From: Dokdonella koreensis DS-123
Lineage (GTDB): Bacteria; Pseudomonadota; Gammaproteobacteria; Xanthomonadales; Rhodanobacteraceae
Direction of reading: 5' to 3'
DNA: 64,000 bases
Assembly (NCBI RefSeq): GCF_001632775.1
Contig: NZ_CP015249.1
Span: forward strand, 724,686 to 788,685
This document shows positions 48,293 through 53,865 of this stretch, in pieces (position 1 is the first letter of the stretch; each line of letters opens with the position of its first letter). The notes below the pieces were generated by a model. It did not search any database, was not told the origin of the DNA, and saw nothing but the letters and a program-made list of their open reading frames with translations. The position numbers and the translations under genes are program-made.

Positions 48293-48337
48293 GGCAGCCT
48301 ACAATGCCGGTTCCCAATGGATTCGCATGAGGCGCGC

Positions 48338-49195
48338 ATGTCCGGTTCTCCCGGCCAGCTCTGGGTCGTGGCCACCCCGATCGGCAATCTCGACGACCTG
48401 ACGCTGCGCGCCGCCGAGGTGCTGCGCCGCGTCACGGTCATCGCCGCCGAGGACACGCGGCACAGCGCACCGCTGCTGGCGCGCGTCGGCAGTGCCGCCG
48501 CGACCGTCGCGCTGCACGAGTACAACGAGCGCGAGCAGTGCGAGCGGCTGGTCGAGCGCATGCGCCAGGGCGAGGACGTGGCGCTGATCAGCGATGCCGG
48601 CACGCCGCTGGTCAGCGATCCGGGCTTCCGGCTGGTGCGCGCCGCGCGTGCGGCGGGCCTGGTGGTCTCGCCGGTCCCGGGCGCCTGCGCGGCGATCGCG
48701 GCGCTGTCGGTGGCCGGACTGCCGAGCGACCGCTTCGTCTTCGAGGGTTTCCTGCCGGCCAAGCCGGCGGGCCGCCGCGAGCGCCTGCAGCTGCTCGCGG
48801 CCGAAACGCGCACCTTGATCTTCTACGAATCGAGCCACCGCATCGCCGAATCGCTGGCCGACATGGCCGCCGTGTTCGGGCCCGCGCGCGAAGGCGTGCT
48901 CGCGCGCGAGCTGACCAAGCGCTTCGAGACGATCCTGGCCGAGCCGCTCGGCGCGCTCGCCGAGCGCGTCGCCACGGACGCCGACCAGCGTCGCGGCGAG
49001 TTCGTGGTGCTGGTCGGCGGCGCCCACGGTGAGGACGCCGATCGCGTGCTGGCCGAAGGGCGGCGTGTATTCGCCACGCTGACCTCCGAGCTGCCGCCCG
49101 CGCGTGCGGCCAAGCTCGCCGCGGCGATCACCGGTGCGCCGCGAAAAGCCCTGTACGACCACGCGAAAAACGTTCAGCCGGTCCCTCACGAATGA
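48338..49195 (+). CDS. rsmI: 16S rRNA (cytidine-1402-2'-O) methyltransferase
   Basis: 285-residue tetrapyrrole-methylase-fold enzyme that 2'-O-methylates C1402 in the ribosomal P site, which tunes start-codon fidelity. Motifs are LWVVATPIGNLDDLTLRA, VIAAEDTRHSAPLL, EYNEREQ, VALISDAGTPLVSDPGF, PVPGACAAIAALSVAGLPSD and FEGFLPAKPAGR. I prefer ATG 48338 (GAGG upstream); ATG 48317 in the same frame is an alternative. Its 3' side holds the small RNA candidate rather than rnpB or mraZ, the neighbours seen in many relatives. Confidence 0.94.
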   Translation: MSGSPGQLWVVATPIGNLDDLTLRAAEVLRRVTVIAAEDTRHSAPLLARVGSAAATVALHEYNEREQCERLVERMRQGEDVALISDAGTPLVSDPGFRLVRAARAAGLVVSPVPGACAAIAALSVAGLPSDRFVFEGFLPAKPAGRRERLQLLAAETRTLIFYESSHRIAESLADMAAVFGPAREGVLARELTKRFETILAEPLGALAERVATDADQRRGEFVVLVGGAHGEDADRVLAEGRRVFATLTSELPPARAAKLAAAITGAPRKALYDHAKNVQPVPHE

Positions 49196-49323
49196 CGGTT
49201 TCGTTGCAGCCCGGATGGGTACGTCAGGCGCTCTGCTTCAAATAGCCGTCCATAACTTCCCGGCATAACGCGGGTGGAATCGTCGACAAATCATCGATTT
49301 GGACGGCCAAAAAATTTCTGCGA

Positions 49324-49384
49324 CGAAAATTTTCGTATCTTCGCGACCGCGTGTCCGGTTTTCGTGCGGGCCTGCGTTTATAGT
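49324..49384 (+). promoter_or_regulatory. Candidate promoter of the C-rich small RNA
   Basis: TTTATAGT (49377-49384) gives a good -10 (TATAGT) just before the first hairpin. No good -35 is spaced upstream. A perfect 12-bp palindrome CGAAAATTTTCG lies at 49324-49335, about 55 bp upstream of the expected start, in an AT-rich patch unusual for this DNA; it could be an UP element or a regulator site. Confidence 0.45.
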
Positions 49385-49387
49385 CGT

Positions 49388-49506
49388 AGGTATCGGCACT
49401 CCCCCGTACGTGTCGATGCCTGAAAGCAATGGTGTATCCGGTCCCCCTAGTCCCGTATGCGCCTGCACCGCAAACGCCGCCCTGGATGGGCGGCGTTTGT
49501 TTTTTT
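49388..49506 (+). ncRNA. Candidate small RNA with two C5-loop hairpins and intrinsic terminator
   Basis: About 119 nt, non-coding. Hairpin 1: 49388-49398 pairs with 49411-49421 (11 bp including two G-U) and exposes the loop CTCCCCCGTACG. Hairpin 2: 49431-49441 pairs with 49452-49463 (with one mismatch and one bulge) and exposes TCCCCCTAGT. A perfect terminator follows. Two unpaired CCCCC loops could pair with G-rich ribosome-binding sites. The layout recalls the C-rich-loop small RNA sX13 of Xanthomonas, as I remember it; homology was not tested. Processing from the rsmI transcript is an alternative to its own promoter. Confidence 0.65.
49471..49506 (+). terminator. Rho-independent terminator of the small RNA
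   Basis: Perfect 12-bp stem (49471-49482 with 49488-49499), loop TGGAT, followed by seven T residues (49500-49506). One of the two clearest intrinsic terminators in the window. It also bounds the rsmI transcript and faces the convergent DUF3293 gene. Confidence 0.93.
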
Positions 49507-49578
49507 GTGGTCGCCGCGCGGTCCGGCATCGCACGATGGGGCGGCAGGTGACCGCCCGGCGAGTGCGCGGATGCGCGC

Positions 49579-50067
49579 CTACCTTGCCCAGTCGCCGTGG
49601 TCCCGTGCGTCCGTCAGTGCCTCGCGCCAGTCGCGCCGGTAGAGACGCAATCGCAGCCGCCGGTCCGCATCCGCCACGATGATCGCGTTCTGTTCGTGGC
49701 GCACGGCCAGCGCGTCGACGAGTCCCAGCGGCACACCGGCCGCCAGCAGCGACGGTTCGCGCCAGCCGTCGCCATGGCCTGCCGCCGGCAGCACGCGCGC
49801 CCCGGCTTCGCGCAGCTCGGCCAGCAGGCCGCGCTGGCGCCTGCGGTTCTCGGCCGCGGGCAAGGGCTGCGAGTACGGATTGCAGGCGGTCAGCACGGCG
49901 CAGTCCGCACCGCACAGCCAGGCTTCCAGTGTGGGATGCGGCTTGGCGTCGAGCACCAGCGCGATCCGGCGGCCACCCGGCAGGCGTACGGCGTAGTGCG
50001 CGGCGCGGTACAGCGCCAGCAGCCGGCGTGCCGACGCGGCGACCGCGGCCGGCGCGTGCGCGTTCAC
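49579..50067 (-). CDS. DUF3293 family protein
   Basis: 162 residues of the DUF3293 type, of unknown function. Visible features are ALYRAAHYAVRLPGGRRIAL, the aromatic/Asn-Pro block VLTACNPYSQPLPAAENRRR, VLPAAGHGDGWREPSLLA and the end VRHEQNAIIVADADRRLRL. The NPxS and GW-EPS motifs are the family signature as I recall it. No signal peptide. GTG 50067 overlaps the kmo stop (GTGA), so it is translated with kmo; a link to kynurenine metabolism is only inferred from this coupling. Confidence 0.7.
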   Translation of the reverse strand: MNAHAPAAVAASARRLLALYRAAHYAVRLPGGRRIALVLDAKPHPTLEAWLCGADCAVLTACNPYSQPLPAAENRRRQRGLLAELREAGARVLPAAGHGDGWREPSLLAAGVPLGLVDALAVRHEQNAIIVADADRRLRLRLYRRDWREALTDARDHGDWAR

Positions 50068-51684: not shown

Positions 51685-53865
51685 CTAGGTCGGCCACGGC
51701 CCCGGGCGCACCAGCCACTCGATCGGCGCCGCCTTGCCGAGCAGGTTGCCTTGCACCCATTCCACGCCCAGCTCCTTCATGCAGCCGAACACCTCGGCGT
51801 TCTCGACATACTCGGCCACCGCCTCCGCACCGAATGCATGCGCGATCGTGACCGAGGCGCGCACCAGCTGGTAGTCGCTGTCGATGCGCAACGCGTTGCG
51901 CACGAACGAACCGTCGATCTTGAGCATGTCGAACGGGAGCTGCTTGAGGCGCTCGAAGCTCTGCATGCCGGTGCCGAAGTCGTCGATCGCCACGTGACAG
52001 CCGAGCATGCGCAGGTCGTTCAGGCAGCGACGGCTGACCTCCAGGTCCGAGATCGCCGCCGACTCGGTGATCTCGAAGCAGAACACGTCCGATGCCAGCG
52101 GGGGGTTGCGCATCAGCCCGAGCAGCTCGCGCACGAATCCCGGCGAGGTGATGCTCTGGGCCGTCAGGTTGATGCCGATGTGCTGCATGTGTCCCAGCTG
52201 CTGGCGGTTCGCGCGGATCCAGCGGAACAGCTCGCGGATCACCGCGCGGTCCAGCTCCACCAGCCGGCCGGCCGCCTCCAGCTCGTGCGTGAAGTGCGCC
52301 GGCGAGAGCAGCTCCCCTTCGGGCGTACGCAGCCGGCAGACCACCTCGCCAGCCGACACCGGGCCGCGCTGCGGATCGTCGATGCGACGCATCGGCTGGA
52401 AGTACAGCGCCACCTCGCCGGTGCGCAGCAGGGCCAGCGTGTTGGAGGCCTCGTCCAGTTTCTTGCGCTGCGCCGCCGCCACGTCCTGCATGCGCGCGGT
52501 ATCGCCCTCCTTCAGCGGCATGACCTCGCGCAGGATGCGCGCCTGGAACGCCGCCTGCGACGCCGCGATGATCGCCGCGTCCAGTCCGGCCGCCTGGCTG
52601 TTGCGGATGCGCGCATGTCCCACGTACGGCACCACGCGGTAGTGGATGCCGTTCCACTCGAAATCGAAGCTCTCCAGCCGCTGCAGGACCTGCTGCCAGT
52701 CCGGATGGCGCTGGTCCTCGCTGCGGCGCATCAGCACGAACTGCGCACTGGTCACGTAGTACGGTGCCACGCGCTCGGCCAGCCGCGCCGCCACGGCCTG
52801 CATCAGCGCCGTGTGCGCATTCAGGCCAAGTCCGGCCAGCAGGCGGTCCGCGTTGTCGACCACCAGGTAGCCTAGTTCCTCGTCGGTGCCGTCGTCCGCG
52901 GCCACGCGCCGGCGCAGCGCCTTGAGGTTCGGCAGGCCGGTCAGGCTGTCGTAGCTCGCTTCCTCGATCAGGCGCTCGTGCATCAGCCGGCCGTCGCGGG
53001 TCGCCACGTGCAGGACCAGCAGCAGCACCTCCAGCACCAGCAGTTCCAGGCCCAGCAGCACCGGCTGCAGCAGGTTGGTCGCCTCGTCGGCACGCTCGGC
53101 CACCGCGTAGACCAGGATCAGCATCACGCCGGCCACGGCCGGCATCGACCAGCGTGCCGGCAGCCGCATCACGCACCAGGCCATCGCTGCCGCGGCCAGC
53201 AGCCGGTAGGAGAGCATCCACGCGCCGAGCGATTCGCCGAACGCCGTGCCCTGCCAGCGACCCAGGACGAAGCCGAGCCCGAGCAGCACCGCCGCCGGCA
53301 GCACCGCGTCCGCGCGCAGCCGCCGCTCGGCGCCGTCCTCGGTCAGCCAGAACGCCGCCGGCAGCGTCAGCACCAGGATGCCCAGGTGCGTGGCCACCGC
53401 CGCCTCGACGATGCGCTCGACCAGTGGCGGCGCCGGCTGGTCCAGGGCCAGCAGCGGTATCAGCACCGCCGCCGAGCCGGAGAGCACCGGCAGCAGCAGC
53501 AGGCAGACACCGACGAAGCGCAGGATGTCGCCGGTGCCCAGCGGCGCGGCGTTCGCGCGCGGCCAGCCCGCCAACCGGGCGCCACCCACCGCCAGCAGGA
53601 AATGCACGGCGTAGAGCGGTACGCCGATCAGCGCCCGCGCGCCGTAGACCGGCCAGACCTGCGCGATCCAGGTCAGCGCGGTCGCGCCCAGGCAGATCGC
53701 CAGCACGCGGCGGCCCGGGTCGAACATCGCGATCGTCAACAGCAGGCCCGCCTGCAGGTACAGCAGCGAGCTGGCCGGCACGCCGGCCATCGGCACCTGG
53801 AACAGCCGGAGCAGCACGCAGGCGGCCGCCAAGGCGGCGGCCAGGAGCAGGTTTCTGGACGTCAC
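51685..53865 (-). CDS. Membrane protein with degenerate GGDEF and EAL domains
   Basis: 726 residues. The N-terminal half (1 to about 290) is a membrane sensor with about eight to nine spans, MASE-like. A GGDEF-type domain follows (about 305-435, YDSLTGLPNLKALRRRV), but its active loop reads SAQFVLMRR, so it cannot make c-di-GMP. The EAL domain (about 470-715) has GEVVCRL in place of EAL, with Glu kept, plus INLTAQSI, CFEITES, AIDDFGTGMQSFERLKQLPF, LKIDGSFV and VQGNLLGK. Most metal ligands seem intact, so phosphodiesterase activity is possible. Start GTG 53865. It separates kmo from kynU. Confidence 0.85.
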   Translation of the reverse strand: MTSRNLLLAAALAAACVLLRLFQVPMAGVPASSLLYLQAGLLLTIAMFDPGRRVLAICLGATALTWIAQVWPVYGARALIGVPLYAVHFLLAVGGARLAGWPRANAAPLGTGDILRFVGVCLLLLPVLSGSAAVLIPLLALDQPAPPLVERIVEAAVATHLGILVLTLPAAFWLTEDGAERRLRADAVLPAAVLLGLGFVLGRWQGTAFGESLGAWMLSYRLLAAAAMAWCVMRLPARWSMPAVAGVMLILVYAVAERADEATNLLQPVLLGLELLVLEVLLLVLHVATRDGRLMHERLIEEASYDSLTGLPNLKALRRRVAADDGTDEELGYLVVDNADRLLAGLGLNAHTALMQAVAARLAERVAPYYVTSAQFVLMRRSEDQRHPDWQQVLQRLESFDFEWNGIHYRVVPYVGHARIRNSQAAGLDAAIIAASQAAFQARILREVMPLKEGDTARMQDVAAAQRKKLDEASNTLALLRTGEVALYFQPMRRIDDPQRGPVSAGEVVCRLRTPEGELLSPAHFTHELEAAGRLVELDRAVIRELFRWIRANRQQLGHMQHIGINLTAQSITSPGFVRELLGLMRNPPLASDVFCFEITESAAISDLEVSRRCLNDLRMLGCHVAIDDFGTGMQSFERLKQLPFDMLKIDGSFVRNALRIDSDYQLVRASVTIAHAFGAEAVAEYVENAEVFGCMKELGVEWVQGNLLGKAAPIEWLVRPGPWPT

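Follow-up and report, generated by a model that had tools for sequence, protein, structure and literature searches.

A probable small RNA gene with two C-rich hairpin loops downstream of rsmI in a Dokdonella lineage

Positions 49388-49506 on the forward strand of a 64,000-nucleotide stretch of the Dokdonella koreensis DS-123 genome (the window) are predicted to fold into two hairpins, each carrying CCCCC in its loop, followed by a terminator. We consider it very likely that this element is a real small RNA (sRNA) gene restricted to one lineage. The interpretation that we favour, to which as a whole we assign a probability of about 0.6, is that positions 49389-49506 form a stand-alone sRNA gene of one Dokdonella lineage, whose product acts in trans, with Hfq optional, and pairs through its C-rich loops with G-rich sites in messenger RNAs (mRNAs). 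We infer that transcription would start from a conserved TATAGT promoter, probably with the help of an activator, and would end at the element's own intrinsic terminator. The two hairpins would keep the CCCCC loops open, and these would initiate pairing, of the kissing or the loop-linear kind, with G-rich mRNA segments; most of these segments would lie near ribosome-binding sites, which would be blocked; such pairing would lower the translation of the targets and would not depend on Hfq. Pairing through the C-loops is our best guess for the mechanism, and a mode of action like that of the known sRNA sX13 is plausible. A literature search on Dokdonella sRNAs and on sX13 in the Rhodanobacteraceae returned no report of this RNA in the library searched.

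An earlier reading of the letters alone (the sequence-only reading) had described two hairpins with CCCCC loops, a 12-bp terminator with T7, a -10 box immediately upstream and an absence of coding capacity, all of which were confirmed here. The predicted minimum free energy of the element, -59.2 kcal/mol, lies far below that of its shuffled versions (-36.6 +/- 3.14 kcal/mol; z -7.2), none of 200 being as good, and the C-runs of both loops are predicted to be mostly open. Two CCCCC runs in the loops of hairpins of at least 6 pairs arose in only 1 of 3000 dinucleotide shuffles. On both strands of the window there are two pairs of CCCCC runs 20-70 bases apart, and that of the element is the sole one with both runs in such loops. 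Although the window is 70.6% G+C, CCCCC is rare in it, with 45 occurrences on both strands vs about 700 expected from base composition, a count close to the 48 expected under a higher-order Markov model. The terminator gains an additional G-U pair and thereby reaches 13 pairs ahead of its T7. A short frame opening at an ATG in stem 1 is not preserved in the relative described below, where the frame from the TTG aligned with it by eye stops after 11 codons; a peptide-coding reading was rejected on this ground. The element has conserved C-runs, predicted to be accessible, in hairpin loops, the feature that characterizes C-rich-loop sRNAs as a functional class.

The only homologue found lies in a second Dokdonella species (G001), in the corresponding position 3' of rsmI, and its fold is likewise stable (z -5.8). 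Between the two species, the block 49276-49505 is 78% identical; in the neighbouring genes, DNA identity over the three longest blocks that align is 80-84%. The block stands out because the sequence flanking it aligns poorly: identity is 46% nearer rsmI (44/96 columns), as opposed to 77% in 49275-49344 (55/71), and falls to 49% beyond the terminator (37/76). Conservation inside the element is uneven. The arms of stem 1 are identical in 6/12 and 6/13 columns, whereas loop 1 keeps 8 of its 9 columns, with its CCCCCGUA conserved, and all 11 columns of loop 2 (UCCCCCUAGUC) are identical; both CCCCC runs are unchanged, stem 2 is nearly so, and the terminator retains 32 of 35 columns. Unchanged loops beside a rewritten supporting stem suggest that function resides in the loops, and this pattern points directly to the seed of an unannotated sRNA.

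The rewriting of stem 1 has largely preserved its pairing. Two-sided compensatory changes were found at 4 of 34 counted pairs, three in stem 1 and one in the terminator (C-G to U-A in the relative), compared with 0, 0, 0, 1, 0 and 0 in slid controls, and 97.1% of the cells were paired (2 of 68 unpaired) vs 33-51% in those controls. The count was made on an alignment anchored by TATAGT; outer pairs of stem 1, which are out of register in it, were excluded, and other alignments, which disagreed on the placement of stem 1 or of the 3' end, were kept out of the count. Pairing energies for the stem 1 arms are -16.9 and -21.2 kcal/mol within each species, but only -7.2 and -7.6 kcal/mol when the arms are swapped between species. 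Compensatory changes in the stems among relatives had been set beforehand as a test and are present, though in one relative only. Together with the far weaker pairing of the swapped arms, they indicate that selection keeps the structure in stem 1 and, by a single change, in the terminator. Stem 2 is almost invariant and by itself says little. Coordinates of the element's parts and of neighbouring features are collected in Table 1.

Table 1. Parts of the element and features around it, in window positions
Feature	Position	Strand	Remarks
Stem-loop 1	49388..49421	+	arms 49388-49399 / 49410-49421; loop UCCCCCGUAC; predicted fold
First CCCCC	49401..49405	+	predicted unpaired probability 0.93-1.0
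Stem-loop 2	49426..49466	+	arms 49426-49441 / 49453-49466, bulged; loop UCCCCCUAGUC; predicted fold
Second CCCCC	49443..49447	+	predicted unpaired probability 0.70-1.0 here and 0.56-1.0 in the second species
Intrinsic terminator	49470..49506	+	12 Watson-Crick pairs and one G-U (49470-49500); loop UGGAU; T7 at 49500-49506
-10-like box TATAGT	49379..49384	+	conserved in the relative
Perfect 14-base palindrome ACGAAAATTTTCGT	49323..49336	.	conserved in the relative; centre ~60 bases 5' of presumed start
Conserved AT-rich upstream region, probable regulatory/promoter region	49276..49387	+	start of the block aligning to the relative
rsmI (16S ribosomal RNA methyltransferase), gene 5' of the sRNA	48317..49195	+	Pfam TP_methylase, RsmI_C
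DUF3293 gene, convergent neighbour	49579..50067	-	Pfam PF11697, 65.5 bits; start codon assumed

As far as we have searched, the RNA appears to be restricted to Dokdonella. It was found in 2 of 10 Dokdonella genomes at E<=0.001. A covariance model from relatives, which the sequence-only reading had proposed as a check, was built on the two sequences and gave matches in 2 of 147 genomes of the family at E<=0.01 (under the stricter filters that apply above 40 genomes); when 40 relatives were searched with laxer filters, the match ranking next reached 23.3 bits (E 0.064). The exact two-loop pattern occurred in a single stretch of the genome collection, in the Dokdonella relative (the window's own record may be omitted there), and neither an IMG/VR pattern scan nor the plasmid collection gave a match. 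Crude local folding of 700 bases each at 30 of 38 rsmI loci detected a terminator together with a CCCCC hairpin loop only at the window locus, where both loops were flagged, and in G001, where one of the two was. Locus L050 has a CCCCC loop but lacks a terminator, L039 combines a terminator and a CCCC loop, and at L041, outside the 30 and read by eye, the RNA is absent. Nucleotide matches at E<=1 in at least 53 of 60 genomes were best on the G+C-rich terminator part, and none but that of G001 was counted as a relative. Covariance matches at 15-23 bits (24 of the 26 listed) were also rejected; the seven inspected contain CCCCC on neither strand, and some look coding by eye.

Several results weigh against the favoured interpretation. 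The compensatory evidence is limited, since a single relative keeps the count small; with only two sequences, 29 of 500 column shuffles also reached 4 pairs, and the count depends on one gap placement. A consensus scan revealed no full sigma-70 promoter and no -35 box. The search for targets was also largely unfavourable. The sequence CTAGGGGGA, complementary to 9 bases of loop 2, has three occurrences in the genome including the gene itself, vs 14 for a reversed-pattern control, and at both other sites the closest start that was read belongs to the opposite strand (10 and 22 bases away), so that those mRNAs would carry C-rich rather than G-rich sequence. The search for GGGGG near start codons, fixed in advance as a check, found it in 1 of 45 window genes, and GGGG in 3 of 45 (the genes being crudely called and their starts uncertain). 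That single candidate, an EAL gene (51685-53865), was rejected as a target because its GGGGG is absent in the relative. Finally, repression at the ribosome-binding site does not necessarily follow from a C-rich loop: the Agrobacterium sRNA PmaR, in the cited excerpt (PMC6234868), mostly activates and does not have ribosome-binding sites as its main target.

An alternative is a C-loop sRNA whose partner is a protein or a single specific RNA, as with a sponge or a single-target antisense RNA, rather than a large set of G-rich ribosome-binding sites. Loop 2 is unchanged in its entirety and not just in its C-run, which suggests a particular partner, and the apparent scarcity of G-runs near starts in the window (3/45) fits the same idea. 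A weak lead is the CTAGGGGGA site at genome positions 850857-850865, flanked by a PrpB-like frame and, divergent from it, a citrate synthase-like frame (both named by eye). The latter has 409 codons on the same strand as the site and opens with a GTG 106 bases further on, which would leave room for a candidate target in its leader. We regard such a specific role as rather unlikely, and pairing with G-rich mRNA sites in general is retained as the preferred mode of action.

Whether the element has a promoter of its own bears on a further explanation, in which it is the structured 3' untranslated region and terminator of rsmI, any RNA being processed from the rsmI mRNA. The element lies on the same strand as rsmI, its terminator is the only one found between 49196 and 49600, and the consensus scan found no full promoter, as this explanation would have it. 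However, TATAGT is conserved, as is a large part of the 110 bases preceding the element, whereas the sequence proximal to rsmI is not (46%). A plain terminator, moreover, needs neither two conserved C-loop hairpins nor compensation in stem 1, and only two of the 30 rsmI loci examined, both from Dokdonella, combine a CCCCC loop with a terminator. An untranslated region of rsmI is therefore judged unlikely, and a stand-alone gene is preferred.

Within the conserved upstream region, the palindrome ACGAAAATTTTCGT has no other occurrence in the genome (a single 4.45-Mb contig) even with one mismatch allowed. Its conservation, its uniqueness and its position about 60 bases 5' of the presumed start suggest a regulated promoter, and the palindrome is a possible activator site; a spacing of about 60 bases upstream of the start is typical of class I activators. 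A regulon shared through this palindrome was rejected, given its uniqueness at up to one mismatch. A second near-palindrome, CAAATCATCGATTTG, lies at 49287-49301, also upstream of the sRNA.

The sequence-only reading had proposed that the C-rich loops could block G-rich ribosome-binding sites, as in the Xanthomonas sX13 type. An independent C-loop sRNA gene finds good support in conservation and compensatory change, but membership of the sX13 family is not supported. No Rfam family matches the element at its gathering cut-off, and the sX13 family (RF02232) has no match in 49196-49580 at E<=5. Eight weaker Rfam matches at E<=5 were rejected, all of them including the terminator hairpin; the best, the rnk_pseudo leader (RF01772), scored 31.1 bits against a cut-off of 55, mostly on the terminator. 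The genome has an sX13 elsewhere (549841-549950; 53.8 bits), the sole RF02232 match at E<=1, and G001 also carries a separate one (57.0 bits). A local alignment of the element with sX13 scored 16 against a shuffled mean of 15.8, 497 of 1000 shuffles being as good. A diverged or relocated sX13 copy, for which the same bacterial order, a similar length (sX13 has 115 nucleotides), the C-rich loops and UCCCCCU could be cited, was rejected as very improbable, since sX13 is separately present in both genomes, the similarity is at chance, and the C-loops of the element lie in hairpins 1 and 2 rather than in the terminator. The covariance score above 50 bits, the three stems with three C-loops and the position downstream of polA that mark sX13 are likewise missing: the element has two C-loops and a UGGAU terminator loop, and it lies 3' of rsmI, about 200 kb from polA. 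Sequestering sRNAs of RsmA/CsrA have several GGA motifs in loops; by inspection, the element contains one GGA, in the terminator loop.

An Rfam scan of 20 of 26 polA loci gave 7 sX13 matches above the gathering cut-off, which led to an RF02232 search of 40 chosen genomes: all 40 matched at E<=1, 38 at E<=0.001 and 16 above the cut-off, two (G004 and G037) being doubtful. In a control set of 14 genomes from other groups there were 3 matches, none above the cut-off. Within Dokdonella's family, sX13-like RNAs at E<=0.001 occurred in 35 of 36 searched genomes, many below the Rfam cut-off; they extend well into this family, for which the Rfam model seems too narrow. The cited excerpt of the sX13 study places sX13 always downstream of polA (PMC3771888). 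In another Dokdonella (G007) it adjoins polA; the copy in D. koreensis is about 24.5 kb from the match to the polA polymerase domain, and that in G001 about 25 kb from polA. The expected site 3' of polA in D. koreensis holds a long stretch of degenerate short repeats, GGCTTC/GGTTTT-like and AGAGCAAC-like. In G001, polA matched as two abutting pieces (C2:470564-471687), perhaps through an assembly frameshift.

If the favoured interpretation is true, two unrelated C-loop RNAs would operate in one cell. We suggest, tentatively and with some doubt, that the Dokdonella lineage evolved a second C-loop sRNA independently of the sX13 that it retained and gave it an activator-type promoter of its own, so that both would have come to use one G-rich mRNA code by convergence and would link that code to two different signals. 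The pair would be useful for asking whether C-loop/G-motif pairing has evolved repeatedly and how specificity is kept.

Among known C-rich-loop RNAs, sX13 is the closest in general character. Both RNAs are near 115 nucleotides long and strongly structured, with C-runs in hairpin loops and a UCCCCCU motif, which the element carries in loop 2 and which, in the cited excerpt, belongs to sX13 loop 3 and to HPnc5490 of Helicobacter pylori (PMC3771888). The same excerpt describes sX13 C-loops as repressing mRNAs with G-rich motifs at or near their ribosome-binding sites, Hfq being dispensable. In the Dokdonella sX13 copies inspected, as in the element, the loops look steady by eye and the stems vary. 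In contrast to the element, sX13 has three C-loops, the third in its terminator, and a 5' region ahead of stem 1, and it occupies another locus; the two RNAs share one genome with no significant match by sequence or covariance model. RepG (HPnc5490) also presents a UCCCCCU-type loop, which pairs with a G-repeat according to the cited portions of its literature (PMC3771888, PMC8295292), whereas the element has UGGAU in its terminator loop and carries its C-loops in the two hairpins that precede the terminator. PmaR of Agrobacterium and RNAIII of Staphylococcus, as portrayed in the excerpts (PMC6234868, PMC3771888), resemble the element in their accessible C-rich loops, and are set apart from it, without sequence comparison, by their different bacteria and different architecture.
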